Shown in pieces: positions 1 to 16,639 of a stretch of DNA of 28,855 bases. This DNA comes from a virus. The position numbers and the translations under genes were made by a program. The DNA is taken from positions 1 to 28,855 of IMG/VR virus record IMGVR_UViG_3300029319_000282; one strand, written 5' to 3'. Position 1 is the first letter of the stretch, and the number at the start of each line of letters is the position of its first letter. Below the pieces are notes generated by a model, which worked only from the letters and a program-made list of their open reading frames with translations, had not been told where the DNA came from and ran no database searches.

Positions 1-831
1 AAATGCTGCACCCGCTTCTCTACCCTTACCTTGAACATATCTAAAATAACCCTCAACATCTAATAGTTTTGGATGTAGTGTTATATCACCTCTTGTGTTT
101 CCTATACCATCGGTTTCGGTTCCAACATTACCGTCTACATATACTTTATAATTTACAGCATAGTTACCATTGGTTAGGTAGGTATAATATCCTGCGCTAC
201 CTTCATACTTTGTAGCCACTCTAAATGATTTGGGTGCAAAGTTATCAACTACATCATCTACTTTGAAATGTAGTTTTAACAATTCTGTTTGGTTTCCGTT
301 ACCATTACCAAATGTTTTGACATTACCATTGTGAGATACCATAGTTATTCTCAACCAATCATAACGATTGTTTGTAGCTGATATTTCATTATTTGCTGCA
401 TCCAAACTATCTGTATATCCAACGTTTGCGTAATGAACAACTTCATAAGAATAATGTGCACCCGCTGAACTATCACCCTCAGTCCAACCGTTGATGTATG
501 CACCTTTCTCTACACGCGTTGAATCGTGTCCCCAAGTAAAAATATCATTATCAAATACAATGTCTAAACGAAATGCAGTAACACTTGCTCCGTTATCATC
601 AAGTGTAACAGCCATTGTCATTACCGAATCTCTCCAAGCATCAAAGTTGTTATTCTTATAAGCTGGTGCAGACGCATCATCCGCTAGGTACGTTCTCAAG
701 TTATGAGTTACCGTATCTCTCCACCAAAACATTGGTGTATCGTAGGTTTTTGACTGAAGTAGTCTGATTATAGGTGTCTGACTATAACCAAAACTAAGTG
801 CCAATATCAACCCAACTAAGAATTTTCTCAT
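1..831 (-). CDS. Secreted protein with signal peptide, C-terminus cut by window edge
   Basis: An open frame runs without a stop from an ATG at 831 to the left edge (277 codons visible). The N-terminus MRKFLVGLILALSFGYSQ is a clear Sec signal peptide: a basic start, a hydrophobic core and a likely cleavage site near Ser-Gln. The rest is rich in Asp, Asn, Thr, Tyr and Trp with alternating hydrophobic residues, as in an extracellular beta-sandwich. A stretch near residues 60-80 (VTLDDNGASVTAFRLDIVFD) recalls cohesin-type sandwiches, but I do not claim the family. A good Shine-Dalgarno (GAGGG) lies six bases before the ATG. It is separated from the upstream kinase gene by 125 bases, the longest gap in the window, so it may have its own promoter. 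A cellular-style signal peptide is odd in a phage virion block. It could be a host-derived gene expressed during infection. The function is unknown. Confidence 0.72.
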   Translation of the reverse strand, partial: MRKFLVGLILALSFGYSQTPIIRLLQSKTYDTPMFWWRDTVTHNLRTYLADDASAPAYKNNNFDAWRDSVMTMAVTLDDNGASVTAFRLDIVFDNDIFTWGHDSTRVEKGAYINGWTEGDSSAGAHYSYEVVHYANVGYTDSLDAANNEISATNNRYDWLRITMVSHNGNVKTFGNGNGNQTELLKLHFKVDDVVDNFAPKSFRVATKYEGSAGYYTYLTNGNYAVNYKVYVDGNVGTETDGIGNTRGDITLHPKLLDVEGYFRYVQGKGREAGAAF

Positions 832-956: not shown

Positions 957-1688
957 TTATTTTTTCAGAAGTTTTTGCTTCTCAATCCACATCTTTGCGA
1001 TTTTGTTTTTGATAGGTTTTTTAAGAAATTTACTAACACTTTTTTTCATTATTGTTTCAAACTTTCTCATAGCTTGAATATAATTCAAAGGCTGATTATT
1101 TGGAACAATAATCATATTACTTTTTCCAAATAAACTTATAAATTTTTTACCATTTGACATAACATCAGTCCAAGATTTTTTTACTAATTCTGGTGGTAAG
1201 ACTCTGTCTCTTTGTTGATTTCTTTTTTGTGCTACTTCTAAATCAGTACCAACAAAAACCATATAAGTATCATAACCATCTTCTTCTAATTCTTTTTTCA
1301 TTTTAGCTATTTTATTGTAGTCGTGACCTGTACCGTCAATAATCATACCCAACTTACCTTGTTGATACAATTTCATTCTTTGTTTGGTAAGTGATTTAGC
1401 AAAGGCTCTTAATCCACTACCACCTTTACCTGTTAAGTCTTTAAATACTTCATCAGGCATCTTATCTAAATCTGTACCAAAACCGTATTTATTTAAAAGA
1501 AACTTTAACTCTTTATCAGAGTTGACCATTTTCATACCAGTCATACTGATATTAAATCTATCAGGTATACCAAAAAGTTGTTTTGCTACATAGGTTTTAC
1601 CACTACCTGGACCACCAGCAAGAAATACTGCTTTGAATATGCCAGGATCGTTTATACCCTCTGATAATAGATTTTTTAATTTAATCAT
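957..1688 (-). CDS. P-loop kinase / zeta-toxin-like ATPase with capsid-targeting-like N-terminus
   Basis: This is a 243-residue P-loop protein. Residues 20-24 form the first beta-strand and residues 25-32 (GGPGSGKT) are the Walker A motif. NSD at 56-58 and IDGTG at 117-121 match the zeta-toxin/AAA_33-type kinase pattern, with an Arg-rich lid-like stretch near 156-162 (RNQQRDR). The C-terminal tail is very basic (Lys-rich, about 215-243). Such kinases occur in T4-like marine phages; the substrate is unknown. The first ten residues, MIKLKNLLSE, followed by Gly, resemble T4 capsid-targeting peptides, which the prohead protease cuts after (L/I)xE. The same leader opens the peptidase at 21732. The start overlaps the endolysin stop by an ATGA, and no strong ribosome-binding site is seen, so translational coupling is likely. 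Kinase fold is confident; virion packaging is inferred. Confidence 0.82.
   Translation of the reverse strand: MIKLKNLLSEGINDPGIFKAVFLAGGPGSGKTYVAKQLFGIPDRFNISMTGMKMVNSDKELKFLLNKYGFGTDLDKMPDEVFKDLTGKGGSGLRAFAKSLTKQRMKLYQQGKLGMIIDGTGHDYNKIAKMKKELEEDGYDTYMVFVGTDLEVAQKRNQQRDRVLPPELVKKSWTDVMSNGKKFISLFGKSNMIIVPNNQPLNYIQAMRKFETIMKKSVSKFLKKPIKNKIAKMWIEKQKLLKK
1659..1688 (-). other. Candidate capsid-targeting sequence (kinase N-terminus)
   Basis: Residues 1-10 of the kinase (MIKLKNLLSE, next residue Gly) form a short amphipathic basic helix ending in L-S-E. This fits the T4 prohead protease consensus (L/I)xE with a small residue after the cut. The leader precedes the P-loop domain and is not part of the fold. 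Confidence 0.5.
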
Positions 1689-2182
1689 ACAGAAAGAGCT
1701 CGTTTATACCAACCAAATATGAATCGTTCTTGTTCAGGTTTTCTATTAACTAAATCGTAATAGTGTTTTAGTCTGTAACAACGAACTCTATCTAACTCAG
1801 GTGTGTGTTTATCTAAGGCTGCTTTTGTACCAGGTCCGAATCCACCATCAACAGTCAAATCACCTCCCTTACCATTGATAGCTCTTTGTAGTATTTTTAC
1901 AGCTGTTCCTCTACCTTGATTCACACACATATCAAAAAAGATATGTTTTAAATCTTCAGGTAAATCATCCACCTTATTTTTATCCCAATAATCTTTCTTA
2001 TAGATTTCTTTAGCACCCTCTTTAGTAAGGTTTTTTATATCTACATCTGGATAAAATCTTTTAGCGATTCCAAAATTAGTTTCACCGCCTAAATCTTTTG
2101 GGTCGTGTACATACCCACCCTCGTGGTGTAATGTTATTTCAATTATTTCATCAAACGTTGTTAAAACTTTATCTGTTTTCAT
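1685..2182 (-). CDS. Endolysin, glycoside hydrolase 108-type muramidase with peptidoglycan-binding region
   Basis: From the ATG at 2182 this is a 165-residue endolysin that should cut the glycan backbone of host peptidoglycan at lysis. Residues 20-23 (HEGG) hold the family's catalytic Glu, Glu21. They are followed by GGYV, and by GGETNFGI, the characteristic block after the active site. YWDKNKVDDLP and the FDMCVNQG helix follow. The C-terminal part from about residue 100 (LQRAIN, TVDGGFGPGT) matches the PG_binding_3 region usually found with GH108. An in-frame ATG at 2236 would add 18 residues, but the ATG at 2182 has a strong AGGAGT six bases upstream and avoids overlap with the oxygenase gene, so I chose the shorter form. 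No signal peptide is present in this form, so a holin is needed; none is visible in the window. Confidence 0.88.
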   Translation of the reverse strand: MKTDKVLTTFDEIIEITLHHEGGYVHDPKDLGGETNFGIAKRFYPDVDIKNLTKEGAKEIYKKDYWDKNKVDDLPEDLKHIFFDMCVNQGRGTAVKILQRAINGKGGDLTVDGGFGPGTKAALDKHTPELDRVRCYRLKHYYDLVNRKPEQERFIFGWYKRALSV

Positions 2183-2188
2183 AGGTTT

Positions 2189-2194
2189 ACTCCT
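2189..2194 (-). promoter_or_regulatory. Ribosome-binding site deciding the endolysin start
   Basis: AGGAGT on the minus strand lies six bases before the ATG at 2182. It is much stronger than anything before the upstream in-frame ATG at 2236, and it supports the 165-residue form. Confidence 0.7.
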
Positions 2195-2213
2195 AAAAAG
2201 GTTTTTGATTATA

Positions 2214-2822
2214 TCAATAAATATTCCAATTATCATAAATTACTCTTTTATCTTCAGAAGGATTTTTAGGTAATAATTTAAAAGCTACAGTTATACGAGG
2301 TAATTTAGATTCTCTGTACAATGGTCTTCCAACGTGAGCTATACTACCTTTAAAAACAGTTATTCTACCAGGTAATGGATTCACTCCAGCAACTATTTCG
2401 TTTACATCGTTGTAAAATAATGTTTCACCCTCTTCACCTAATGCCCAACTCTCTGTAGCATATAATAAACACGTATATGTTCTTTCCGTATTCGCATCTT
2501 TATGTATAGAACTCCGTTGTCCTTCTGTTTGAGCATTAGCATATTGTCTATCAACCTTAAACTCATCCATATTAATTATTTTTTCACTTAAAGATGGTAG
2601 TATAAAATCATTCCATATATTAGTGGTTCTTTCACAATTTGATAGTTCTTTATACCAAAACTTGGCTTCTTTTAAAGGAACCCCAGCTCCTTGCATTTGC
2701 CAGTTTCTATCTCTATGATTTATCCAAGCTATGTAATCACTAAGAAAATTTGGTTTAGGACCATCTAAATTTAGGATTACTAAATCCTCTAATTTAACCT
2801 TTTCGGTTTCTTGTCCATTCAT
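2214..2822 (-). CDS. 2OG-Fe(II) oxygenase (second of a pair)
   Basis: This 202-residue protein has the double-stranded beta-helix signature of 2-oxoglutarate/Fe(II) dioxygenases. His107 and Asp109 (IHKDA) form the HxD part of the iron site and His163 (AHVGRP) is the distal iron ligand. Arg176 (PRITVAF) is placed to bind 2-oxoglutarate. The order and spacing fit the prolyl-4-hydroxylase-like group. A strong AGGAGA lies six bases before the ATG, inside the preceding oxygenase gene, with which it overlaps by 29 bases. The two are therefore made together. Position just downstream of two tail-fibre genes suggests modification of virion protein, but nucleic acid, lipid or a host metabolite are equally possible. 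The family is secure; the substrate is unknown. Confidence 0.87.
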   Translation of the reverse strand: MNGQETEKVKLEDLVILNLDGPKPNFLSDYIAWINHRDRNWQMQGAGVPLKEAKFWYKELSNCERTTNIWNDFILPSLSEKIINMDEFKVDRQYANAQTEGQRSSIHKDANTERTYTCLLYATESWALGEEGETLFYNDVNEIVAGVNPLPGRITVFKGSIAHVGRPLYRESKLPRITVAFKLLPKNPSEDKRVIYDNWNIY

Positions 2823-3525
2823 CTATTATCTCCTGAGGTATGTAATCAAATCCATTGGGTGTGTATATCGATATGTTTGCAGAAAAAACAATTCTATCTG
2901 TTTCTCCAAGATAGGTGTCAGCATCGTGAAATACCCAAGCTGGAAAGAGAACACATTTTCCTGCTTCTGGTTGTACAGGATAATGTGAATCATTTATATT
3001 CCATAAGTTACCAAGCTGATATCTAACTAAGCCAGGCGTTCTTATATCATAAAATCTATTAGAACCTCTCTCCTCTGGTGTATGAGAAGTAAAGTAATAT
3101 ATAAAACCCCAATCACAATTTGGATGATTATGAAACTGATGTGAACCACCTTTTTGAGTTATATGAAACCAACTCTCTTGTATGTAAGTTTTCCAATGTA
3201 TTTTATCTATACCAAATCTTAATTTAAATGCATCCCATTGTTCTTTATTTATATCTTGTGTTATTCTACCAACACTTTCTTTAATATATTGATTAAAGAA
3301 TTGTACAGTTGGATTCTCCCACATATCATCCATAAAGCTAAACTTTGATTCATACAAATTGTCTTTTAAATGTGGTGTTACATCACTAGGTGCATTGTCT
3401 TGTGAATACTGATAAAATATATCAATTAACTCATTTCCCATTTGGTCGTGATAGGGGCAAGTCCACTCAAAAAAAGGAATTGAAAATAAATCTTTTTTAT
3501 TGTAACTTATGTCTGGTAAATCCAT
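2794..3525 (-). CDS. 2OG-Fe(II) oxygenase, 2OG-FeII_Oxy_5-like (first of a pair)
   Basis: This is a 243-residue protein of the 2OG-Fe(II) oxygenase superfamily. The stretch GGSHQFHNHPN (127-136... region) contains His132 and His134. It is followed by the strand FIYYFTS, then LFPAWVFH with His200, and DRIVFSANI with Arg211 as the likely 2-oxoglutarate anchor. The HxH...H...R pattern with FP(A/S)W before the distal His is typical of the 2OG-FeII_Oxy_5 group common in marine T4-like phages. It is not obviously a recent duplicate of the next gene: the iron motif is HxH here and HxD there. GAGAGG precedes the ATG. It lies 23 bases from the stop end of the Hint-containing fibre gene upstream, so it is probably part of the fibre transcription unit. 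The substrate is unknown. Confidence 0.85.
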   Translation of the reverse strand: MDLPDISYNKKDLFSIPFFEWTCPYHDQMGNELIDIFYQYSQDNAPSDVTPHLKDNLYESKFSFMDDMWENPTVQFFNQYIKESVGRITQDINKEQWDAFKLRFGIDKIHWKTYIQESWFHITQKGGSHQFHNHPNCDWGFIYYFTSHTPEERGSNRFYDIRTPGLVRYQLGNLWNINDSHYPVQPEAGKCVLFPAWVFHDADTYLGETDRIVFSANISIYTPNGFDYIPQEIIDEWTRNRKG

Positions 3526-3548
3526 ATAACCTCTCTAATAAGTATATA

Positions 3549-6500
3549 TTATACAAATGAAACTTTAACATTTTTTTCAAATCTAATTGCACTATCACTT
3601 AATTTACCATTTGCATAAAAGTTTTTATTGATTGTATTGATTGTGTATGTATCTCTACTATCTTCAATTAATTCTATAGATTTGACTTTACTTGAACCAT
3701 TTATCGTTTTAATCTCTGTATTTATTGTTAATTTACTTGAATTAACTTTATAAGTTTTGATTGTCTTTTTTGGATTTATAGAATATAATTTGTTATCAAG
3801 AGAAACCATTGGGTGGTCACTTGTTAACATAATTTCAGTGCCATCATCGAATGTTACTTTTCTTAAATGAGAGTGTTTTACTTTTAAAATATCCCATATT
3901 TCAACTAATTCATTTTTACCAGTATTGAAATTGTGTGATAATATCATATCACCTTTAGAAAGACTATCGATATGCTGTAAACCATCGTCAGTATTGAGTA
4001 GTACAGAATTATCTAAACAGGCAAATCCACCAACATCGTGAGACCAATTTATATTTCTTGTACTAGAGTCTGTATTTGTACCACCTGATGCGTGTCTAAG
4101 CTTGAGTGTTGCTGTACCACTACCAACTCTATCTGCACTTTGTGTTAATTTTACACGAGCATATATTGTTTCATTATTTACATTACCACCTGTTAACGTG
4201 TTGCCATAACTTGTAGGATTTGAAGTTTTTGCAAGTGCTACAGCAAGAGTTGCAAATGTAGGTGTTGTACCACCAATTATTGAGCTTATTGTACCTGAAC
4301 CATAATCTAAATTTATATTAGCTATTGCTGTATCAGTCTGACCGTTACCAAATGTATCGAGGGCATATGAACCAGCAGACCAAGAATCCCAACTTACTGA
4401 TGGTTGTGTTGATGTGGCATCAGTTGTGGAAGTAGTTGTTTGGGCTGCAAGTGAAAAATTGTTTGTTGCTGCACTGGTACAAAGAGTTGAACCATTGTAA
4501 GCATATACTGCAAATGAATATGTTCTACCAAATTTTGTAAGATTTATTTGGTAGAATCTTTGTGTACCTGCTGATAAACCTGTTTCTGATACTGTACCAC
4601 TTGTAGCTGAAGTTGTTGTTAAAGTGCTTGTATAATTACCACTACTTGGACCTGCTTTAACGTTGAGTGTGTCAACACTACTTACATTCCAACTAATATT
4701 AATTTGACTTTCGCTAGCTGCAGTTGCTGTGAAACTATTGACTGTTGGAGCACTGTGATTAGTTAAACTTGTAACTTCACCAGTAGTGTTGTTTTGAGGT
4801 ATCGTTGCTCCTAACGTATCACCTGAATCTGCATTTGAATCTGCATAGTAAATTTTAAACCCATCTTCGATACCTGAATTATCTGTCCAGGTCATTTCAA
4901 TAGATGAGTTCGTATTTGAAGAGAATGTCAAACTTGTTGGTGATTTTGGTATTGCTTGACCCACAGCTATATAATTACCTGCCGTCATATCACCACTATT
5001 ATCGATAAGACCAATGTGAGTATTTTCAATTTGGAAAAACTTACCTGAAGTACCACCAGACCAAACACTACCATCTTGAGCATTATAAAATCTGACTGTA
5101 TTTGAACCAGGTGTGTGGATATCGGAACGATAGAAAAGTTCTTTTTGTTCATCAGCACCTGCAAGTACTGCATCTTCTTGATTCGTACTAAAACCAACAC
5201 CACTAGTTGATGACATACTATCACCTTTGACAATAAATGAATCCCAAGTAAATGTTGCAACTTGAAAAGTAGCACCAGTTGTTGTTTTTGTAGTTGTTTG
5301 TGAGCTACCATTTGGTGTTGTAGTTTTACTTCTTAGAGCATCTACTCTGAATGTAAATGTTGTACCTGCTGATAATCCAGTAAATGTAGCTGAAGTACCT
5401 GGCATAGCAACATCGATTGATGTACCAGATGTTAAATTATGTACTCTATGGTCAGTTGCATTACTACCTGCATTAAAATTAATATTTATAGCTGTACCAC
5501 TCGTACCTACTGAACTATTGTTACTTGCTTGACCTGGTGCTGAGAAGTCAGAGAATGTTGCAGCATTATCATTTACTACTTTACCCGAAGCACTACTACC
5601 AATTCTAAAATCAACTATTGTACCAAAGGTTGTACCGTGCATTTGATTTCTATCAAATGTAACAGTACCACTTTGAGCACTTACACTAATACTTTGATAA
5701 ACATTTCCACCAGTACCTGTATCTAAACCTTCACCCATTTGTATATCTACAGCATCATCAAAGTTTTTACTATATGTTATTGTAAAATTACCTGTATCAC
5801 CAAAAGTCCAAGATGTTAGAGATGGGTTACCTAAACTTAAAGATGGGTTAATTGTTGTAGCAGTTGCGGTATCTTGAACAGATTCACCATCGGAATTAGT
5901 TGCAGTCAAAGTATATATTATAGTTGCATTATTACTATTACCAGTATCTGTTACATTACTATCAACAGATACAGAACCTACACCTTGATTTACAGTAGCA
6001 GAGCTAGCATTAGTTGTAGCAATAGTTAAATCTATTTCACCAAGTAGGTTACCTGTTGCAGCAGAGAAAGTGTCTATCACTGGTAGTGGGCCAAGAATAG
6101 CAGCATTTCCTAAACTTCTGACAATAGTATCACTTGAATCCGTGTCAATTATTCTTACTTCTCTACTACTATTGGTATCACGTTCTAAAGCAGCTGTATC
6201 AGCTACTGTAACAGCACCTGATATATCTGATGTAATAGCTGAGATATTTACAAAACTACTACCATTGTATCTTTGTACTCTCATATTTTGTACAAAATTT
6301 GCACTAACACCAGATAATGTGATATCACTACCTTCTCTCAATACTCCATCAAGAGCACCTCCTGTAAATGCTTTTGTAACTGCAGTTATGGTTTGGTCAA
6401 AACTTGTTGTACCACTTGTACTATCCTGACCACTTACAGTCAAATCTGAACTCTTAGAACCACCTGAAGTATACTTACCTTTTACTGTACCTTGTGTAGA

Positions 6501-8144
6501 ACTATTACCACTTGTAAAAGAAAAATCTGTTATAGAGTAACTAAATGATGTAATATTATTACCCTCAACACTAGGTGTAAATGTAAATTCTGTTGGTGTT
6601 ATGCCGTGAGTACTACTTGCTATTGCATCACCGTGTGTATCTGTGGTTGGTCGAAATGTACCTGAACCAGGGCTCACACCAACACTAACAGTTGGGTTTA
6701 CAGTCAATAAAGCAACTGAAGAGCTTGTTTGTGAGTAATCAGCTGAACCAGCGAATGTAATCGTATAAACTTTATTATTAGCACCTGGCGTCATTGTTGC
6801 ACTACCATCTGCGTTAAGAGTTGCGCCACCAATACTATCTTCACTTGATATCACAACTTGCTTATTATTACCTACTAAACTTGAAACTGAAAAAGCCTGC
6901 GTTTGATTTACATTAATAGTTTGACTCTGAGGAATACTAAAAGAAAGTTGTGGTGCTACTGTAATAGAACTTCCTACATAAGCTACACTATCACCATCGT
7001 GAAAAGCTTTTGGATGATATGTTCCAGCTGAACTAATTGTAAAATTTTTTGATATATCTTCTTGAACATAAACTGTAGAAACTGCTTCATCAACTGATGT
7101 AAAAGTTTTATCTGATGGAGTATTGTTGGTATCGTGTCCTATAGTTACAGTTCCACTTCTACCTCTTGAAGTACAGGTTATGGTAACATTTTCTGAACCA
7201 TCGACTGCAGAAACATTTACTGTTGTATCACTAGCTTGTAAAGAAACTATTTGTTGTGCATACTTAACCTCAAAATCTCTTTGTGAAGTTGTTTCGTTTC
7301 TTGCTTTTGATGGATTACCAACGTGTGAGGTTTGAAATCTTAAAATACCTGGTGTATTAGATATAGAGTATGTTGTATTACCAGAATTACTTTCACTAAC
7401 AAGTGTAGCAGCTATAGCACCACCATCTCCATTGATTACCGCTGATTTACCTGTTATAGATTTACTAACTTGAGTTCCTGTATTTACTGAAGTAGATACT
7501 ACTGGATTACTAATACTGGCACCCGATGAAGAGACAAAGACTGTTTCAACAATACTACCACCTGAATTCTTTATTCGTGTTACTCCATTAGCTATCGCAG
7601 TAAAATGGTTTATGGTAGCACCAGTTGCATTTTCAAAGGTACCAGTTGAAACAAAAGCATAGTATTTATCATCAGCTTCAGCAGTTGTGGGTGCAGTAAA
7701 GGGAATGTCTAATGTGCCAGTATCGGTTCCAACGTTTACCGTGTTAGATGCTAAAATTGCATTGTTTGATGTAGCTTTTACACCAACAGTAAAACTTGGA
7801 CCTAAATCAGTATTATTTCTTACAAATTCTATTTGAGCACTTTCACCATCAACATAACCATTACTTGTTACATCAGTACCATCTGCTAATTGAGGTTCGA
7901 CACTATCAAAAGAAGCATTAAGTATATTAGAACCACGAAATTCAGATAATCCAAATGGTGATGCTTTTAAAGCATCTCTATCAGCAGTTTGATTAGCAGT
8001 ACTATTTCCATCCACATCACCAACTAGAGAACCTGATGCGAATTGGTTTGCCAATGTAGACATAACTAAATCTTGTCTACTAGCAGAGTCGTTATTGTCA
8101 GCCAATGCTCCCATATGTATCGGACCTGAAGTGGGTAAAGCCAT
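3549..8144 (-). CDS. Large tail-fibre/adhesin protein with Ig/FN3-like repeats and C-terminal Hint domain
   Basis: This 1531-residue virion protein starts with a fibre-attachment-like region (about 1-74: MALPTSGPIHMGAL and FGLSEFRGSN), a pattern I associate with marine phage tail fibres. The long middle part is Ser/Thr/Asn/Gly-rich with many beta-sandwich repeats; FN3-like stretches are seen near 870-940 and 1065-1230. From Cys1376 to about 1518 lies a Hint domain with CLDNSVLL at its start, Thr1441 and His1444 in TSDHP, and NFYANGKL near the end. It lacks the His-Asn that ends an intein, and only about 13 residues follow. The start overlaps the upstream giant fibre stop in TAATG, with GAGGAG upstream, so the two are coupled. 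It probably sits at or near the tail tip and binds the host surface. The fibre role is inferred from context and composition; the Hint call rests on motifs. Confidence 0.85.
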   Translation of the reverse strand: MALPTSGPIHMGALADNNDSASRQDLVMSTLANQFASGSLVGDVDGNSTANQTADRDALKASPFGLSEFRGSNILNASFDSVEPQLADGTDVTSNGYVDGESAQIEFVRNNTDLGPSFTVGVKATSNNAILASNTVNVGTDTGTLDIPFTAPTTAEADDKYYAFVSTGTFENATGATINHFTAIANGVTRIKNSGGSIVETVFVSSSGASISNPVVSTSVNTGTQVSKSITGKSAVINGDGGAIAATLVSESNSGNTTYSISNTPGILRFQTSHVGNPSKARNETTSQRDFEVKYAQQIVSLQASDTTVNVSAVDGSENVTITCTSRGRSGTVTIGHDTNNTPSDKTFTSVDEAVSTVYVQEDISKNFTISSAGTYHPKAFHDGDSVAYVGSSITVAPQLSFSIPQSQTINVNQTQAFSVSSLVGNNKQVVISSEDSIGGATLNADGSATMTPGANNKVYTITFAGSADYSQTSSSVALLTVNPTVSVGVSPGSGTFRPTTDTHGDAIASSTHGITPTEFTFTPSVEGNNITSFSYSITDFSFTSGNSSTQGTVKGKYTSGGSKSSDLTVSGQDSTSGTTSFDQTITAVTKAFTGGALDGVLREGSDITLSGVSANFVQNMRVQRYNGSSFVNISAITSDISGAVTVADTAALERDTNSSREVRIIDTDSSDTIVRSLGNAAILGPLPVIDTFSAATGNLLGEIDLTIATTNASSATVNQGVGSVSVDSNVTDTGNSNNATIIYTLTATNSDGESVQDTATATTINPSLSLGNPSLTSWTFGDTGNFTITYSKNFDDAVDIQMGEGLDTGTGGNVYQSISVSAQSGTVTFDRNQMHGTTFGTIVDFRIGSSASGKVVNDNAATFSDFSAPGQASNNSSVGTSGTAININFNAGSNATDHRVHNLTSGTSIDVAMPGTSATFTGLSAGTTFTFRVDALRSKTTTPNGSSQTTTKTTTGATFQVATFTWDSFIVKGDSMSSTSGVGFSTNQEDAVLAGADEQKELFYRSDIHTPGSNTVRFYNAQDGSVWSGGTSGKFFQIENTHIGLIDNSGDMTAGNYIAVGQAIPKSPTSLTFSSNTNSSIEMTWTDNSGIEDGFKIYYADSNADSGDTLGATIPQNNTTGEVTSLTNHSAPTVNSFTATAASESQINISWNVSSVDTLNVKAGPSSGNYTSTLTTTSATSGTVSETGLSAGTQRFYQINLTKFGRTYSFAVYAYNGSTLCTSAATNNFSLAAQTTTSTTDATSTQPSVSWDSWSAGSYALDTFGNGQTDTAIANINLDYGSGTISSIIGGTTPTFATLAVALAKTSNPTSYGNTLTGGNVNNETIYARVKLTQSADRVGSGTATLKLRHASGGTNTDSSTRNINWSHDVGGFACLDNSVLLNTDDGLQHIDSLSKGDMILSHNFNTGKNELVEIWDILKVKHSHLRKVTFDDGTEIMLTSDHPMVSLDNKLYSINPKKTIKTYKVNSSKLTINTEIKTINGSSKVKSIELIEDSRDTYTINTINKNFYANGKLSDSAIRFEKNVKVSFV
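3591..4019 (-). other. Hint (hedgehog/intein-type) domain within the 1531-aa fibre
   Basis: This region encodes residues 1376-1518. Seen are the N-terminal Cys1376 after Gly-Phe-Ala; the block-A-like run CLDNSVLLNTDDGLQHIDSL; SKGDMILS; the block-B TxxH (Thr1441, His1444); and a late block DTYTINTINKNFYANGKL. No homing endonuclease is inserted (about 143 residues). The usual terminal His-Asn is replaced by Ser-Asp-Ser, so standard intein splicing is unlikely. N-terminal thioester formation and cleavage remain possible. Confidence 0.78.
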
Positions 8145-11100
8145 TACAACTCCTCAAGTTTTTTCTTTAGTTCATCAATCTGCTTTTGTTGTTCTTGAAT
8201 CGCACCAATTAAGAAAGTTGTTAACTTAGAGTAATCAATAGTTTTATGATGTATCTCACCAGTTAAATTCACAACCTCATCTCCTAATGAATGTACTTCC
8301 TTAACAACTTCAGGTAGAATAGGTTCAACCTCTTGAGCAATCAAACCTACATCATTTTTCTTTTGATTTATCTTCCATCTAAATGATGATGGTTTTAATT
8401 CTAATATCTTTTCTAAATTATTTTCTAATGGTTTTATATTTTCTTTTAATCTTCTATCAGAGCCTACCGATGTTGAAAATGCAGTTACGTCATCCTTAAC
8501 GTGAAGATGTCCATCACGTCCAAATGCAAATAGTTCAACACCAGCTACAGAACCGTGTCCATTTATTATTAAACCTTGTGGTTGTTGACTTACGCCAGTG
8601 CTTTCTTGTAGAAAAATACCATTTGCTGCAGCGATTGATGGAGTAGAACCAAATCGTAATGGTGGACCTGCAGTAGCATTATCTTGAAATCTTATGAATC
8701 CTTTTGTATTAGAAAAATCACTAACAATCAATGAACCTGTTAGGTGAGTTGAACCTAATATTTCTACGGTTTTATCTTCTTCGGGTGCTGCGCGGAAGTA
8801 AGCGTTATCACTATGATTAAGTGTAACATTTTCTAATGCTATAGTTTGAAATCCAGATGGTGCTAGTTCTGTCTTTTTATTACTTGGTTCGTGTTTAACT
8901 GATGTAAAGTAAGCCTTAACAGATTCTATATGCGTATCTGATGAAAATTCTTTAAATGGATTTAAATTAGCATAATTTTCTGTTAAAGCATTATTAGTAA
9001 CATTTAAGTCGTGTAATTCAAAATAGTAACCCTCAGCAGCGCCAGTGTGGTTAACTGTTACATTTTTTGTTGTGGTAAACGTTGTACTATCACTACTTCC
9101 ACCACCAGCTGGATACACAGTCTGACCTATATTGGCGTGATTCACCTCAGTATATGTAGAACCCTGCTTTCTCAATAACTTTAAGCTACCAGATATAGTG
9201 TAATTTCCAGATAAACCAATGTTGTAGTCAAGACTATCGTGATTTGGTGTAGCTACAGTTACCTCAATTTTTAGTGTTGCGGCACTTTTGTAGGTTGAAC
9301 CAGCTGATAGTGTTTTTAAATCAACGCTAGAAGAATTTTCATTTATCTCAGCTGAAAATACTGTATTATCACCCGAACCTGAATCACCTGCATATAAATG
9401 AAGTTCGGCAGAAGTTTGTGCATTATTTAAAGTTAATCCTGTAGCCTGAGTTCTATTTCCTGATGGTGTATTATCTGACATACCTGTATGACTAGATGAT
9501 TTACCACCAGCTTGTAATATGGTAGCAGATGGTGTAAAGTTAGGAACTAATTCACCAATAAAGCTTCCACTCGTGATTGTGATATTTGGTGAACCAGCAG
9601 TTGCATCTATTTCTATTTCAGAGTTTGCATCCCTTATCTTGTTACCATCAATAATCCAACCAGTTGTATCAGCCGAACCAAAGAAGCCCGTTGTAGCTTC
9701 TATGTTACCTGCTATGTTAGCATTCTGAGCGGTTACATCACCAGCAGTATTAATACTAAATGATGGAAAGTTCATAGCTAAACCATCTGAAGTACCTCTT
9801 ATATATGAAATTCCTTTTTCAAAACTAAAATCACCACTACCACTTAAAAAGATACCATCTGAGCCAGTAACGGATGTACTTCCATTCACGTAAGGTGCGC
9901 TAACGGCATCCCCTAACTTGATAGAACCACCGTTAGAAGAAGAAACTGCTATACTACTTCCTGATAAGGTTGTGGAATCTATTGTAAAGCCGCCTATCTG
10001 ACCACTTGTAGCGGTAACTGCACCTGTAATTGTTGCAGCTGTTGCTGTTACGACACCTGCTGGTGTAACTCTAAATTCTGCACTTCCAAATGTTTCATTA
10101 CCTAAATAAATTCCGTTTGAGTCTGCTTTAAATACACTTTCACCAGAACCAATTTGTATGTCTCCCTTGAATGATGCGTTTCCGTCTTTATCTATAAAAA
10201 ATTCTTTTGCGTGTAAAGCACCACTTGATGATAAAATTAGTCTACCTGCTCCACTTGTATAGTTTGTAGTATTTTCATCAGTTCCCGTAAATATCTTATC
10301 ACTATGTATAGTCCAACCACCAATCGTACCTGTTGTGGCAGTTACATCTCCTGATATCGAAACATCTCCACTACTATCTACTGAGAAGTTGCCTGTTTTT
10401 ATTTCTAAAGCACCATTACCACCATCAGCATCAAACTTAATATAATTTGTATTATTATCATCTCCTTTGATTAATACATCACCACTTCCACTTGCAAAAA
10501 ATCCTTTGTTAGTAGTTGCTACCGTACTAGCATTAGCTAAAGTTCCAGCTTTTACAGAACCATCAGAACTTAGAGTAACATCTCCACCTGTCAATGTAGA
10601 TGAACCAATATTCCAACCACCAATCAAACCTAATGATGAGGTTAGTACACCCTCTATTTTTGCACCACTTGCAATTAACTGACCACTTGAGGAAACTGCA
10701 AAATCCGTTCCAAATCTTACATAGTAATTTGAACCTGGTGTAAAATCAATATAGAATCCCTCCAATTCACTATTGTCATCTGTTTTAAATATCCTTGAAC
10801 TATTTGCATCAAGTGTTATGTTACTACCTGTAATTAAACCTGTATTTGTAATATTCCAAGAACCTATATTACCCTCTGTTGCACTAACTCTACCTGATAA
10901 GAAAACATTTTCTGACATTAAACCAAAGCCAGGATTTGCTGCACCGAATACAGCACCTGTTCCAGCTAATCCACTTAAATCTCCTAACCTTGCTTTTCTT
11001 GAAAATCCACCACTACCTGATTCTACAATATCTATGTATGGTGTATCGGTATCAGTAGGATTAGCATTTATATCTATGAATCCTGTACCTGGTCTTCCAA

Positions 11101-14100
11101 AACTAATAATAACTTGTCCATCCTCATATGATGCTGATAAAGAACTTTCTCCACTAAAGTTACCTATAGAGCCTGTAACACTACCAGCAGCTGCTCTTGA
11201 GGCTGATAGAGCGTGTTCAAATCCAGTAGAGTTACCTGTTTGGTCTGATGCAGAGAAAGCAGCTGTTAACTTTAAGAACTCAGAGTTGAAGCCTGTATCA
11301 TCTACTTTCTTACAAAATAGTAATTCACCAGGTCTAAATCCTGCAGCGTTTTGAACTGGAATCGCTGTAGCACTAGCACCAACACTACCACTTATAGTAG
11401 TAGCATTACTTACAAGTAATCTACCACCAACTGCATTAACAGTTTGTTTCTCAAAGGTTGTTGTAGCTAATGTTCCCCTTACAAATACATTTGAGAACTC
11501 AGCAAAACCTATATCATCTATAGCCCAACCTTTTTGTTTTGGAACATAATCTTTTGTTCTAATTGAACCTGTACTACTGAATATTATATTATCTGATTCT
11601 AATGTTGCACCACCTATATTCCATCCTGCAATATTACCAGCACTAGCACTTAATTCACCACTAGCTCTAACTTGAAAGTTAGATGAACTTATAAATATAC
11701 CAGTATCAGTTGTAGATGTCTCATCTGCATTACCTCTCAAGTAAAAGGTTTCACCAGATAACTTTTCTCTACCTATCGTGAATCCACCAATCTCACCTGT
11801 TTCAGCTTTTATATTACCTTTTACTGCAACGTCTCCACTTGATGATAAATGAAAGTTTGAAGAACTTATTTCTATATTACCACCACTACCACTTACAAAT
11901 TGAGAATCACTACCTAAGAAAAATGATTTAGCTTTTACTTCAAAGACACTTGGATTACTTCTAAATTTAAGTGAACCCTCATCTCCACCAGCGTGTAATT
12001 CTAATCCCAATCCATCGTAAGTTTCAGCTGAATCTATAGATTCACCAACACTACCACTAAACATAATAATACCAGGCGGACCTTCACCTGTAGTAGCTTT
12101 TTCAAATCCTTTGTATGATTTAGTTCTAAAGTAAGCTGAACTCTGTCCACTTAATTCAAACCCTTGCCCCTCACCTAATCCATTATTAATTGTAAGGGTG
12201 CCAGGCATAACATTGTCATCACCAGAAAATACCGTATTACTTCCTTGTATATCAGTAGAGTTTGGTGTGTAAGTTACTAAGTCAGCTTGCTTACCATCTT
12301 TTGTAAAGTACTCTACTTTGTAAGTTATCTTTTGAGGACGTTGTGTTAACTCTGGCGTATCAGTTATTATATCCATATTGTTTGGATTAAAACCTGATTC
12401 TCTAGCTTGTCTTAATGAAACATTATTAATGTACCATCTACCAGCGGTAGCTACAAATTGTAAAGTGGCTCTAGCTGTATCCTCTAAGATAAAGTTTTGG
12501 TATACACTCTTTGGAAATGTAATATTAGCATCAGGACCTTTATCATCAGGATTTACTATACCTATCAAGTAACCCCACGGAGTAGATTTGAAATCAGCGC
12601 CTTTATTGGTTAGATTCAAACCAGAACCAGATACGTAAACTTTTAATTCTGCCTTTTGTCTTTCAACTAAACTATCATTTTCCCTAACTTGTTTAGGAGC
12701 TTTTATAGGTTTAGCATTAAATCTTAAACTATATTCTTGTCCTCCAAATATTAAAGGACGATTTTCAGCTGATACATTACCTTTGGTAGCCACATTTCTT
12801 GTGGATGTATCTTTTAACCAAAGTGCTACATTATCTTTTTCTGAATAGTTAGAACCCGATATTAGAATTGAATCTGTTATATCAGATACACTAGCAGTTG
12901 AACCTGTCATTTCTATAAGAAGTCCTCTTTCATTCCCACCTATATATCCAGCTTCTGTACCTTGTGAACCCGACCAATACGATGTGAATATAGATGATGT
13001 TGGGAAGAAACCTTTCATCAATCTACCTTTTAAATGTAACTTATCTACAAGTTCTTCTCTAGCTTCTAAAACTCTTTCTGTTAAAAATTTATATTCAGAA
13101 TCATTTCTTGTTTTATAGTAAACTTTTGCTCTGTAAACATCACCTGATACAGTTCTTAGATTAGATAATCTAATATTTGTTTTCGATATAAAATTAACTT
13201 CGTTAAAATCATACTCTTGAGTCTCGTTAAAACTCATAGTATATGGTGAACTTGCTAAATCAGGAATTTCAATTAACTTTTTAGATAAATCAGCTACTGT
13301 ATTGTTGAAAACTAAGGGTTTGGCAGATGGTATTATCTTACCATTTTGTATATCAGCTATATCAAACTCATAAGGTAAGTTTTGACTTATTAAATCAGTA
13401 ACAGTATATCCTGCACCTTTAGCAAAATCTAAGAGTTCATATCTATCTACTTTTACTTTAGCACCATAAATTGAGTTACCTACTTTTCTATTACCTGATA
13501 AACTATCTAAAGTAATTTCATAATCTTGTACAATAGGACTACCAGCATTTTGTTGTTCATCATATCTATCATCCCCACTTGTATCATACGTACCATCATT
13601 ATCACTATTTTGTCCTGAGTTAGATGCGTTTCTATCTGAGTTAGAATCTTGTGATTGTCCATCATCATAATTGTTATCATCATCTTGAGTAACTGCATTT
13701 TCTTTAGCATCACCACCCGTATCTACAGCATTAAGTTGGTAATAAACTTTATTACTTTGCACTCCGTGTACACCAACTTGTAAGCCGACAGATTTTATAT
13801 CACTATCATCAACTATAAAATCTACATTCTTTCCGTGTCCAAGTCGAGTTAATTCAGCACCATCCGAATCATTTAAACTCCAAGTATAAGCAGTAATCTC
13901 AGTTGCGTAAGCAGCACTATGTGATGCATTAGCTCTTGTTATTGCTGTATGATTTCCAAATGATAGTGATGCAGTAGGTGTATTACTAACCGTATCATCA
14001 TCTATTATTATATCGGTATCATTCAATACTACTGCAGTAGAAGCGTTAACTGTAACTGCTAAACTACTACTTACTGATGCTATATCAGCTGCATCAGTTG

Positions 14101-16639
14101 CAACAATACTAGCTTTGTAACTACCAGCAGTAGTATATGTGTGAGTAAAATCTGCGCTAGATGAATCAGTACCTTTTAATGTTATACCATTTGGATACGT
14201 AAGTAAATCACTTGAACCATCTCCCCAAGCTACTGATATCTGTTTAAGCTGACCAGGCGTAGATGAAACTTGATTAGAACTACCACTAACTACAAGAGTA
14301 AATTCTTGTCCTGTTTCTACTGTAGAAGAACCTGATACAACATCTATATTTGGAACAGGCTGTCCTACTCGTATAGGCGCACCTATAAATGTTTTTGTAC
14401 CACCTGCAAATGAAGCCTCTATTCTTGGTGTATAAGATCCTGGTTCAGTATAAGTTATATCAGCAGTTTGTGAAGAGGCTGACATCTCTATATCAGATAT
14501 GCCAGTTTTTAAAATTCTTGAAGTAGGACTTCCTTCTCCATCCTCTGTAAACCTAACAGTAAGAGGTGCAGTTCCCTCAGAGTTATTAACAGAAAAGTGT
14601 GGGCGAGGTGTGCTTGCGTTGTTAACAACTTGTTTAATAGCTACATTTGATTTTCTACCAAGAGAATCTATAGCCCAATGTTCAATATTATAGTTACCAG
14701 CTGCTTGATACGATGCTGAAACTGCAGAGCCTGTTACAGTAGTTTTGTATAATTCAAACCCATCCCAATATACTGTTTTACCAGAACTCTGTTTAGCATT
14801 TATCCTAAAACTTGCATACTTTGTAGATGGGTGTAAAAATCTACTATGAACTTGCAATCTCGTCCAACCACTTGAGTTTACTTGTGTTAATGGTGATTCA
14901 ACGATGTTACCAAATTGGTCATCTAAAGAACCTATAGTTTCAAAGTTCTCATCTAAACCAAATAACATTAGGCTAACAAAAGCATTACCACTATTACATC
15001 TAGCATAAGCATCTATTGTAAATCCATCCGATTGAGTAGCTGGTGCTAGATTAGCAGTACTACTACCACGATAGTGTCCGAAGTAAGCCTCATCAGCATT
15101 TGGTGCTTGTGCTAAAGCGTGTGAACCACTATACTTAACACTTGATTGTCTTGTTACACTTGAGTTACCTACACTATACCCATCCCAAAATCCACTTAAA
15201 GCACTACCAAATATACCATTAGGTGCATAATTTAAAAACTGGCTACCAGTTGGACGGGCTCTATCAAAATACCAATAAAAATTATCAATTTCTGCACCAC
15301 TACTAATAGTCGCTGAAGAAGTAACATTAAAATTAGCATCAGCATTAACAACAGAGTTAGATATTGTAAAATCTGCGACAGGTGGATTAGGTGCAACTAA
15401 TATAGTTCTACTTACAACATCGTTTTGTGCATCATAATTATTTTTAACAGTGTGTTTTACGGTATATGTTCCACTACCTGTATACTCGTGTATTACCTTT
15501 CTACCTGCAGAACCTGTTACCTCAAGAACTCTACCATCACCGAACTCCCAAACAAATGTTGTATCATCTAAATTATCATCTGGATTATTTGATACATCAC
15601 TACTAGCAGAAATAATACTTCTATCACTAAATCTAAATCTAGCTCGTGTAAAGTTAGTATCTTTGATTGGGTCTAAACTACCAGTTAGGTATTCAGTTTC
15701 ATTAGCAGAGGCTTCATTAATAGTACCATCCGATATAATCATACTAGCACTTGGTGTTGCTGGTGGGTTTACTGTGATTGTTACATCATCTTTACCACCA
15801 AAACCAAATGGTGAATTACCAACTGCTCTTACTGTATAAGTTCCAGCCTTTGTATATGTATGAGTTCCATTTATATTTTGTGGATTAAATGTATCTGTAG
15901 TACCATCACCCCAATCGAAGTTTACATTTTTTACTGCACCATCTACACTAGCTTTTAACTTAACTTCATATTTTCTATTTCTTAAAACACCCGTTGGTTT
16001 TGTATCATCAAGAAAATCTAACTCAATATTACCTGGTTGAATCAACCACGGATTTAAAAATTGTTGTACACCAAACGGAACTCTTTTACCTGATAAACTT
16101 CCACTTATTTGTATGTTTACTTCTCGTTCACCTACTCTTGGAATTACCTCTTTTACTAATGTTTCAGATACAGATATTTTTGGTGCTCTTAAAAATATAA
16201 TCTTTTCATTGTTAGGAGCTGCTGGGTCTAATAAAATTTGTGCTTGATATCTTACATTGTAAACACCTTGAAATTCTGGTGGTATTTCTATTCCACCATT
16301 TAGATTTGGGTCAGGATTAATCTCACCTAATAGTGTAAGTGTAGCTAAACCAGCTGGTGCGTTTTCGTAAACCTCTATAGTTAATCTTCTTGATGTACCC
16401 TCTAAGTAATTTCTAATAGGATTTACGTAAATCGGTTCTCCATTAGCATCTACTAATTCATATAGAATATCTGTTTCTTTTTTAAGAGTATCAGAACCAT
16501 CTATTAATATAGAAGAACGACCAGTAGGAATTACGGGTGGTAAATCAAGTAAATTAAAGTAGGTATTATTAGTATCCTCTACAAAAACTTGTACTTGATT
16601 TAGATTTTGTTTTTTTACTGTTTTGCGAATTAAAGCCAT
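8144..16639 (-). CDS. Giant tail-fibre protein: PKD domains, fibre repeats, C-terminal S74 chaperone
   Basis: At 2831 residues this is the largest gene here. Residues 1-200 are an N-terminal region likely for virion attachment. PKD/Ig-like domains follow, marked by WGDG or WEFGDG near 242, 363 and 803, with less clear copies to about 970. A carbohydrate-binding-like sandwich lies at about 468-631 (ends in VYWDGFELYKT). An Asp/Asn/Ser-rich stretch at about 975-1033 may bind calcium. From about 1600 to 2350 there are seven repeats around GxIGGWxI, the usual shaft of marine T4-like fibres. The last 105 residues are a Peptidase_S74 chaperone domain that trimerises the fibre and cuts itself off. 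The stop overlaps the next fibre start. No clear Shine-Dalgarno precedes the ATG, which is 64 bases from a divergent gene. It probably recognises the host surface. Confidence 0.9.
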   Translation of the reverse strand: MALIRKTVKKQNLNQVQVFVEDTNNTYFNLLDLPPVIPTGRSSILIDGSDTLKKETDILYELVDANGEPIYVNPIRNYLEGTSRRLTIEVYENAPAGLATLTLLGEINPDPNLNGGIEIPPEFQGVYNVRYQAQILLDPAAPNNEKIIFLRAPKISVSETLVKEVIPRVGEREVNIQISGSLSGKRVPFGVQQFLNPWLIQPGNIELDFLDDTKPTGVLRNRKYEVKLKASVDGAVKNVNFDWGDGTTDTFNPQNINGTHTYTKAGTYTVRAVGNSPFGFGGKDDVTITVNPPATPSASMIISDGTINEASANETEYLTGSLDPIKDTNFTRARFRFSDRSIISASSDVSNNPDDNLDDTTFVWEFGDGRVLEVTGSAGRKVIHEYTGSGTYTVKHTVKNNYDAQNDVVSRTILVAPNPPVADFTISNSVVNADANFNVTSSATISSGAEIDNFYWYFDRARPTGSQFLNYAPNGIFGSALSGFWDGYSVGNSSVTRQSSVKYSGSHALAQAPNADEAYFGHYRGSSTANLAPATQSDGFTIDAYARCNSGNAFVSLMLFGLDENFETIGSLDDQFGNIVESPLTQVNSSGWTRLQVHSRFLHPSTKYASFRINAKQSSGKTVYWDGFELYKTTVTGSAVSASYQAAGNYNIEHWAIDSLGRKSNVAIKQVVNNASTPRPHFSVNNSEGTAPLTVRFTEDGEGSPTSRILKTGISDIEMSASSQTADITYTEPGSYTPRIEASFAGGTKTFIGAPIRVGQPVPNIDVVSGSSTVETGQEFTLVVSGSSNQVSSTPGQLKQISVAWGDGSSDLLTYPNGITLKGTDSSSADFTHTYTTAGSYKASIVATDAADIASVSSSLAVTVNASTAVVLNDTDIIIDDDTVSNTPTASLSFGNHTAITRANASHSAAYATEITAYTWSLNDSDGAELTRLGHGKNVDFIVDDSDIKSVGLQVGVHGVQSNKVYYQLNAVDTGGDAKENAVTQDDDNNYDDGQSQDSNSDRNASNSGQNSDNDGTYDTSGDDRYDEQQNAGSPIVQDYEITLDSLSGNRKVGNSIYGAKVKVDRYELLDFAKGAGYTVTDLISQNLPYEFDIADIQNGKIIPSAKPLVFNNTVADLSKKLIEIPDLASSPYTMSFNETQEYDFNEVNFISKTNIRLSNLRTVSGDVYRAKVYYKTRNDSEYKFLTERVLEAREELVDKLHLKGRLMKGFFPTSSIFTSYWSGSQGTEAGYIGGNERGLLIEMTGSTASVSDITDSILISGSNYSEKDNVALWLKDTSTRNVATKGNVSAENRPLIFGGQEYSLRFNAKPIKAPKQVRENDSLVERQKAELKVYVSGSGLNLTNKGADFKSTPWGYLIGIVNPDDKGPDANITFPKSVYQNFILEDTARATLQFVATAGRWYINNVSLRQARESGFNPNNMDIITDTPELTQRPQKITYKVEYFTKDGKQADLVTYTPNSTDIQGSNTVFSGDDNVMPGTLTINNGLGEGQGFELSGQSSAYFRTKSYKGFEKATTGEGPPGIIMFSGSVGESIDSAETYDGLGLELHAGGDEGSLKFRSNPSVFEVKAKSFFLGSDSQFVSGSGGNIEISSSNFHLSSSGDVAVKGNIKAETGEIGGFTIGREKLSGETFYLRGNADETSTTDTGIFISSSNFQVRASGELSASAGNIAGWNIGGATLESDNIIFSSTGSIRTKDYVPKQKGWAIDDIGFAEFSNVFVRGTLATTTFEKQTVNAVGGRLLVSNATTISGSVGASATAIPVQNAAGFRPGELLFCKKVDDTGFNSEFLKLTAAFSASDQTGNSTGFEHALSASRAAAGSVTGSIGNFSGESSLSASYEDGQVIISFGRPGTGFIDINANPTDTDTPYIDIVESGSGGFSRKARLGDLSGLAGTGAVFGAANPGFGLMSENVFLSGRVSATEGNIGSWNITNTGLITGSNITLDANSSRIFKTDDNSELEGFYIDFTPGSNYYVRFGTDFAVSSSGQLIASGAKIEGVLTSSLGLIGGWNIGSSTLTGGDVTLSSDGSVKAGTLANASTVATTNKGFFASGSGDVLIKGDDNNTNYIKFDADGGNGALEIKTGNFSVDSSGDVSISGDVTATTGTIGGWTIHSDKIFTGTDENTTNYTSGAGRLILSSSGALHAKEFFIDKDGNASFKGDIQIGSGESVFKADSNGIYLGNETFGSAEFRVTPAGVVTATAATITGAVTATSGQIGGFTIDSTTLSGSSIAVSSSNGGSIKLGDAVSAPYVNGSTSVTGSDGIFLSGSGDFSFEKGISYIRGTSDGLAMNFPSFSINTAGDVTAQNANIAGNIEATTGFFGSADTTGWIIDGNKIRDANSEIEIDATAGSPNITITSGSFIGELVPNFTPSATILQAGGKSSSHTGMSDNTPSGNRTQATGLTLNNAQTSAELHLYAGDSGSGDNTVFSAEINENSSSVDLKTLSAGSTYKSAATLKIEVTVATPNHDSLDYNIGLSGNYTISGSLKLLRKQGSTYTEVNHANIGQTVYPAGGGSSDSTTFTTTKNVTVNHTGAAEGYYFELHDLNVTNNALTENYANLNPFKEFSSDTHIESVKAYFTSVKHEPSNKKTELAPSGFQTIALENVTLNHSDNAYFRAAPEEDKTVEILGSTHLTGSLIVSDFSNTKGFIRFQDNATAGPPLRFGSTPSIAAANGIFLQESTGVSQQPQGLIINGHGSVAGVELFAFGRDGHLHVKDDVTAFSTSVGSDRRLKENIKPLENNLEKILELKPSSFRWKINQKKNDVGLIAQEVEPILPEVVKEVHSLGDEVVNLTGEIHHKTIDYSKLTTFLIGAIQEQQKQIDELKKKLEEL
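8147..8461 (-). other. Peptidase S74 intramolecular chaperone domain
   Basis: This region encodes residues 2727-2831, starting SDRRLKENI. Ser2727 and Lys2732 have the spacing of the Ser911/Lys916 catalytic pair in the phage endosialidase S74 domain. DVGLIAQEVEPILPEVV is the conserved core, and a C-terminal coiled coil (QEQQKQIDELKKKLEEL) ends it. Cleavage before Ser2727 would release a 105-residue piece after the fibre trimer folds. Confidence 0.88.
9600..11830 (-). repeat. Tandem fibre-shaft repeats in the giant tail fibre
   Basis: Seven diverged copies of a protein repeat centred on G-x-I-G-G-(W/F)-x-I are seen. Examples are GEIGGFTIG, GNIAGWNIG, GNIGSWNIT, GLIGGWNIG, GTIGGWTIH and GQIGGFTID, with a last variant at GFFGSADTTGWII. 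Each is followed by LSSSG-like and DVTATT-like runs. At the DNA level the repeats are recognisable but not identical. Copies are unequally spaced. This is a beta-rich shaft, not a DNA-level satellite. Confidence 0.75.

Follow-up and report, generated by a model that had tools for sequence, protein, structure and literature searches.

Two overlapping 2OG-Fe(II) oxygenase genes in a variable slot beside viral fibre genes: a possible role in fibre modification

Examination of a 28,855-nucleotide stretch of DNA from an uncultured marine phage (positions 1 to 28,855 of the IMG/VR record IMGVR_UViG_3300029319_000282, which holds 31,530 bases; the whole stretch is called the window below) revealed two overlapping genes coding for different putative 2-oxoglutarate (2OG) and Fe(II)-dependent oxygenases, placed between putative fibre genes and an endolysin gene. 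The pair and its signals are the following (aa, amino acids):

2794..3525, minus strand: first oxygenase gene, 243 aa, PF13759 / phrog_81 type, HxH...H...R site
2214..2822, minus strand: second oxygenase gene, 202 aa, PF13640 / phrog_274 type, HxD...H...R site
2794..2822, minus strand: overlap of the two oxygenase genes, 29 bases
2830..2834, minus strand: AGGAG ribosome-binding site of the second gene, within the first gene (sequence read directly)
3530..3534, minus strand: AGAGG-like ribosome-binding site of the first gene (sequence read directly)

Two overlapping, different oxygenases had been described in an original prediction made from the letters of the DNA; its coordinates proved exact, both genes lie on the minus strand, and both proteins exceed the curated cut-offs of their Pfam families, so that the two identities are not a matter of chance. 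The active-site residues that it named (H132, H134, H200 and R211 in the first protein; H107, D109, H163 and R176 in the second) stand at those positions, and both the 29-base overlap and the ribosome-binding site inside the first gene, read as AGGAG from 2834 to 2830, were found as described. Seven bases separate this AGGAG from the ATG of the second gene, and the overlap together with the spacing suggests that the two proteins are co-translated. For a role in defence, a PADLOC search matched only a generic 2OG model filed as CRISPR-associated (33 and 16.8 bits).

The first protein scores 48.6 bits against PF13759 (2OG-FeII_Oxy_5; cut-off 27) and matches phrog_81 at 2.7e-29; against TIGR02466 it reaches 55.1 bits, below the cut-off of 62.5. 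In place of the facial triad of two histidines and one carboxylate it carries HxH...H, and H132, H134, H200 and R211 are invariant across 28 aligned PF13759-type proteins, bacterial ones among them. The solved structures 2rg4 and 3bvc show the HxH as well where they align, so that it is characteristic of the family and no decayed HxD. These two uncharacterised proteins, from Oceanicola and Roseovarius, are the nearest fold matches among solved structures for the AlphaFold model of the first protein (mean predicted local distance difference test score, pLDDT, 87.1), followed by prolyl hydroxylases. They share site and fold with the window protein but are bacterial and only 18-20% identical to it, and their entries give no function. 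Given the three-histidine site, the first protein is no more than a putative 2OG enzyme.

The second protein scores 32.7 bits against PF13640 (2OG-FeII_Oxy_3; cut-off 27) and matches phrog_274 at 1.1e-18; with 58.4 bits it lies below the curated cut-off of 240 for the FlmC family 2OG-Fe(II) oxygenase (NF052475). Its iron triad and distal arginine (H107, D109, H163 and R176) are invariant across 25 aligned phrog_274-type proteins. The nearest folds for its AlphaFold model (mean pLDDT 77.8) are prolyl hydroxylases of Dictyostelium and P. putida; the small-molecule oxygenases AndA and OkaE are also listed, so that the fold alone cannot settle the substrate of this enzyme. Its best profile matches to solved structures, which include OGFOD1, PolD, prolyl-4-hydroxylase (P4H) and PHD2/EGLN1, are weak (best E of 5.6e-6 in one search and 1.2e-4 in another) and fall mostly on protein hydroxylases, the P. 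putida P4H solved with EF-Tu among them. The P. putida P4H (4iw3, 4j25), the Dictyostelium PHD (6t8m) and PHD2/EGLN1 share the fold of the second protein, OGFOD1 (4nhx) resembles it by profile only, and identity to the solved prolyl hydroxylases is only about 11-18%. To judge in part from the titles of the entries, the substrates of these solved relatives are EF-Tu, HIF or further proteins of the cell.

The family phrog_274 is filed in PHROGs as 'DNA endonuclease V'. Three of the four cyanophage phrog_274 proteins that were scanned match 2OG-FeII_Oxy_3, including the P-SSM2 protein labelled 'denV' (PSSM2_163), and so does the phrog_274-type protein of a relative discussed below (L162); the fourth, from S-8S53, matches nothing in Pfam at E up to 0.01. 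Neither the window protein (E up to 0.1) nor any of the four cyanophage proteins (E up to 0.01) gave a match to an endonuclease V family. Since its members match 2OG-FeII_Oxy_3 and no endonuclease V family, the name of phrog_274 looks like an annotation error, and a DNA-repair reading of the family was rejected on these Pfam matches. The label 'DNA endonuclease V' or 'denV' looks wrong for two genes in particular, which match a 2OG-Fe(II) oxygenase family and none of endonuclease V:

L016:3102-3671: 'denV'-labelled gene PSSM2_163
L017:5896-6405: second gene of this kind

Pairs of this kind recur beside fibre genes in other phages. A survey was built on an alignment of five cyanophage phrog_274 members (best 80 of 110 loci) and extended by four loci through a PF13759 alignment (five loci, one a duplicate), giving 84 phage loci with 98 phrog_274-type genes. 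Another oxygenase gene directly precedes 88 of the 98 and is missing from that position in 10. The upstream partner is phrog_61-like in 71 pairs and phrog_81-like in 17, and 86 of the 88 pairs overlap. A fibre- or collar-like gene lies at most 6 kb from 87 of the 98 genes; nine of the other 11 start less than 4 kb from the start of their locus. Under our own grouping the window pair belongs to the same tandem type, with its overlap, its order (a phrog_61 or phrog_81 gene, then a phrog_274 gene) and a fibre gene less than 6 kb away. The original prediction had asked whether the pair always follows fibre genes: overlapping pairs recur after cyanophage fibres, but pairs away from fibres, which it would have counted against its reading, exist in part as well.

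The gene order in S-PM2, Syn1, ACG-2014i and S-CAM1 is the gp12 fibre, an oxygenase, a 'tail assembly chaperone', a further oxygenase and an overlapping phrog_274-type gene; Sf-CH1b has a similar order, in which a collar-domain protein takes the gp12 position and a hypothetical protein that of the chaperone. As in the window, S-PM2 p229/p230, Syn1_041/042 (noted as T4-GC 28 and 166), ACG-2014i gp037/038 and S-CAM1 SXBG_00064/00063 are overlapping oxygenase genes with the phrog_274 type downstream. The likeness has limits: the downstream proteins of these four pairs are 22-30% identical to that of the window, the upstream partner in S-PM2, Syn1 and S-CAM1 is phrog_61 (PF13640) instead of phrog_81, and the cyanophage pairs precede other genes whereas the window pair precedes a GH108 endolysin. 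The window order of phrog_81 followed by phrog_274 is found in S-MbCM6_020/021 and in second pairs of several survey loci (L069, L070, L074, L075 and others), with overlaps of 4-20 bases or gaps of 2-3 and a protein identity to the window pair of about 16-27%.

The genes that flank the pair define a slot between fibre genes and endolysin:

8144..16639, minus strand: tail fibre, 2831 aa, matched at its C-terminus by phrog_1980 'tail fiber protein' (5.1e-22)
3549..8144, minus strand: putative fibre, 1531 aa, beginning with MALPxSG, with fn3 matches and an intein/Hint-like segment near the C-terminus
1685..2236, minus strand: GH108 endolysin, bordering the variable slot on the right, PF05838 (4.6e-26), phrog_315 (6.3e-50)
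957..1688, minus strand: Zeta-toxin/AAA_33-like kinase, PF06414 (5e-10), PF13671 (3.6e-9)

Two giant fibres had been predicted upstream of the pair. The PHROG match bears out the 2831-aa protein; for the 1531-aa protein, which has no PHROG match, a role as fibre is inferred from gene order and from the MALPxSG protein that follows the large fibre in relatives.

This slot was compared across phages with the window endolysin as query (best 80 of 183 relatives' loci). The window gene order, with a kinase-type gene after the endolysin, was found in 31 of the 80; the kinase lies upstream in 36, and 13 have none near. In 13 of the 31 the slot runs off the contig, in 7 its border is a large open reading frame (ORF) judged not fibre-like (five of these slots are empty and two hold two small proteins), and 11 were counted as fibre-bounded, eight by a match or a MALP start and three by judgement (L150, L154, L158); L161/L163 and L165/L167 are close copies. 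Seven of the 11 counted slots are empty, one holds a Gly-rich protein only (L151, 171 aa) and three hold enzymes.

The first of these three is the slot of a sister contig, IMGVR_UViG_3300030333_004437 (59,925 bases; slot locus L148), with the same oxygenase pair at 98-99% identity; it was the only close relative of either oxygenase found among viral contigs. The two oxygenase genes differ between window and sister contig by 5 bases each, too few for a selection test. In the second (L162) a Gly-rich 168-aa protein is accompanied by a different pair, a 201-aa phrog_61-type and a 190-aa phrog_274-type oxygenase; another contig (L233) starts within a gene nearly identical to that of L162, directly ahead of the endolysin. 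The third (L166) combines a Gly-rich protein of 133 aa with one of 324 aa; the latter matches TIGR04414 with 275.9 bits (cut-off 200), the family of autotransporter strand-loop-strand (Aah/TibC-type) O-heptosyltransferases, and the large ORF next to it resembles the 2831-aa fibre of the window. This protein occupies the same fibre-endolysin slot as the window pair but is a glycosyltransferase and not an oxygenase, and it comes from a single contig. In phage records it has four matches at 35-44% identity, one of them within a large Microcystis phage gene that is annotated as FkbM methyltransferase.

Within one phage group the contents of the slot are therefore exchanged: it holds either of two distinct oxygenase pairs, a protein glycosyltransferase, or nothing at all. 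This exchange is the strongest argument presented here for modification of a fibre or adhesin, although its basis is three distinct slots with enzymes and a single heptosyltransferase contig.

The Gly-rich slot proteins (L162:6233-6739, L166:6455-6856 and L151:7457-7972; 133-171 aa, 27-34% Gly) are found behind the large fibre where a relative lacks a MALPxSG fibre, and presumably are small adhesins.

We consider modification of the phage's own fibre or adhesin by the oxygenase pair to be the best single explanation of these arrangements, with a probability of roughly 0.45. Two non-heme iron oxygenases, translated in tandem, would act on fibre or adhesin side chains during synthesis, hydroxylation being the likeliest reaction for the second enzyme. 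The pair would be a cargo of the variable slot that runs from the fibre genes to the endolysin. The downstream, prolyl-hydroxylase-like enzyme would be the constant partner and the upstream one would be exchangeable, a three-histidine phrog_81 protein here and a phrog_61 type in the L162 relative and in most of the sampled cyanophage pairs, directed at another site or residue than its partner. We infer a protein substrate, the fibre as that substrate and hydroxylation as the reaction. Hydroxylation of fibre side chains or of a surface molecule had been put forward in the original prediction; the recurrence beside fibres and the slot shared with a glycosyltransferase favour a fibre link, and pairs and lone genes beside other genes count against it. 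A wider proposal, that marine T4-like phages have between adhesin and endolysin an exchangeable slot for fibre decoration, which in different relatives of one phage holds oxygenase pairs, a protein O-heptosyltransferase or nothing, with a three-histidine enzyme as first oxygenase, is tentative; if it is true, such fibres would bear covalently modified side chains, possibly with altered adsorption or stability.

A number of observations weigh against fibre modification. The survey loci come mostly from one syntenic cyanophage lineage with near-copies, the lineage from which the query was built, so that the counts show a conserved arrangement and not 98 independent events. Empty slots make up 7 of the 11. 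The L166 heptosyltransferase matches TIGR04414 from profile position 81 only, a scan for this enzyme gave no second contig besides its own, and the large ORF next to it lacks both an NCBIfam match and a fibre PHROG. Neither window fibre has a collagen-like run of at least three G-x-x triplets, and the Pro content of both is just 2.5-3.4%. The 1531-aa-type fibres of window and sister contig align well for about 1100 residues and differ over the last 430 or so, the intein/Hint-like segment being present in the window while the sister fibre ends differently without it; such divergence, set beside oxygenases that are 98-99% identical, argues against a strict fit of the enzymes to the fibre end. 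Any fibre target is more likely to be the shared part of this fibre, or the 2831-aa fibre, than the divergent end. A collagen-type prolyl 4-hydroxylase substrate was rejected, GXY runs being absent from both fibres.

Gene contexts away from fibres belong on the same side of the balance. A scan with the second window protein and its L162 relative gave 38 loci, that is, the sister contig and 37 that were examined; in 10 of the 37 (L234, L235, L237 and the near-copies L261-L267) clamp-loader (gp44/gp62), regA or thyX genes share the stretch with the match. The phrog_274-type gene of P-SSM2 stands alone between gp44 and gp62, and that of S-8S53 adjoins thymidylate synthase, both away from fibres. 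S-8S53 also has two overlapping oxygenase genes that match the first window protein, beside psbD, and in S-B64 a phrog_274-type gene is followed by a phrog_81 gene beside psbA. Two adjacent phrog_274-like genes stand ahead of thyX in L235, and adjacent ones occur in L236 and L239, where none of the genes shown is labelled as fibre. A tree of 60 rows, with fibre, 'fibre?' and replication contexts assigned by hand and clustering inflated by near-copies, leaves the second window protein unplaced; its nearest row by path is the L162 slot protein, and the most identical one (32%) is L237, from a clamp-loader context. This tree requires the 'fibre' label to change 7 times, against 16.7 in shuffles, which indicates that gene context is partly inherited, yet repeatedly changed.

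In the deposited S-B64 record, a 202-aa PF13759 gene (L018:6378-6986; 75.2 bits) directly after the phrog_274-type gene is unannotated.

Contexts of this sort are what a host-directed or auxiliary metabolic function would explain, namely hydroxylation of a host protein or metabolite, or a drawdown of 2OG during infection, with the fibre-side position no more than a hypervariable cargo site. Such roles are strong rivals to fibre modification, and we regard them as possible, if on the unlikely side. They draw on the phrog_274-type genes beside replication, thyX and photosynthesis genes, and on solved relatives, some of which hydroxylate proteins of the cell (EF-Tu and HIF, for example). Marine phages hold many such genes in varied places; one report counts 24 2OG oxygenase genes in a single cyanophage, their functions not specifically investigated (PMC9602691), another counts ten in one phage (PMC9964418), and a third describes seasonal enrichment of phrog_61 genes (PMC11561400). 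Roles in nitrogen/2OG balance and in DNA repair have been proposed for cyanophage 2OG oxygenases (PMC3037559). Generic metabolism, however, leaves unexplained the overlapping fibre-side tandem and the protein glycosyltransferase found in the same slot.

A two-step oxidation by the pair had also been considered in the original prediction; that both enzymes would act successively on a single atom or residue appears improbable. The overlap and tight spacing imply matched amounts of the two proteins, and the order of the pair is conserved in the survey; but the upstream family varies between phrog_81 and phrog_61 while the downstream one is constant, and lone phrog_274-type genes occur, which weakens this route because a fixed route predicts fixed partners.

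We give even less credit to DNA or nucleotide chemistry, such as base oxidation or repair of phage DNA. The 'DNA endonuclease V' label and the members located by clamp-loader or thymidylate synthase genes would suit it, but the Pfam matches that contradict the label count against it, no AlkB or TET/JBP family was found for either window protein at E up to 0.1, and the nearest solved relatives are mainly prolyl hydroxylases, with one weak DNA-demethylase match (E 0.52). Least probable of all is that the first protein lacks 2OG oxygenase activity, being either an iron protein whose three-histidine site serves a different chemistry or a subunit that partners the second protein: its His134 does replace the carboxylate ligand, as in the other aligned sequences and 2rg4/3bvc, and three-histidine iron sites are typical of other dioxygenases, but the 2OG-binding-type arginine R211 is equally invariant, as in 2OG enzymes.

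Both oxygenases belong to known and common phage families; what is new is the recurring fibre-linked tandem and the exchangeable slot. Judged by titles and the beginnings of abstracts, no publication was found that treats the two genes as one unit or reports a slot for fibre modification. Marine phage genomes abound in 2OG-Fe(II) oxygenases. If fibre-linked pairs modify virion fibres, many genes that are counted as metabolic would be modifiers of structural proteins, and phage adhesins would gain a second chemical layer besides sequence variation.

The bacterial relatives of the first oxygenase were also surveyed, in 41 genome loci; four were dropped for want of an ORF passing the profile, and 37 have a homologue. 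A TonB-receptor-like gene lies within the fetched stretch in 28 of the 37 and is adjacent and on the same strand in 18. Neighbours at chosen loci include a methyltransferase and a POT transporter (L137), a TPR-GT41 protein (L120), and TPR-sulfotransferases with a TPR Asp/Asn beta-hydroxylase (L131). These neighbourhoods fit peptide or protein chemistry near the cell surface, as an association only. Literature searches gave nothing that joins a TonB receptor with halogenase/SapC/2OG-Fe, FlmC with 2-oxoglutarate, or YhhC with cyclophane hydroxylation.

The C-terminus of the 1531-aa protein (3549-4013, about residues 1378-1531) carries the intein/Hint-like segment (about residues 1378-1513), with PF14890 at 17.3 bits and TIGR01445 at 14.6 bits, both below cut-off; it might point to self-cleavage of the fibre end or to its attachment. 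A third 2OG-Fe(II)-type oxygenase of 245 aa, with no PHROG match, is encoded on the sister contig away from the fibres (L010:15512-16249; PF13640, 31.6 bits). Window positions 1-831 hold the first part of a protein whose N-terminus, by eye, resembles a signal peptide, which is unusual next to lysis and fibre genes; on the sister contig this protein is 429 aa long and still open. Finally, several proteins of this phage start with MIKLKxLL or MIKLKxII (L010:13323, L010:14339, L011:18333, L012:17783 and the window kinase at 1688..957). We take these starts to resemble the head-targeting N-termini of T4 internal proteins, in which case the Zeta-like kinase might be packaged and injected.

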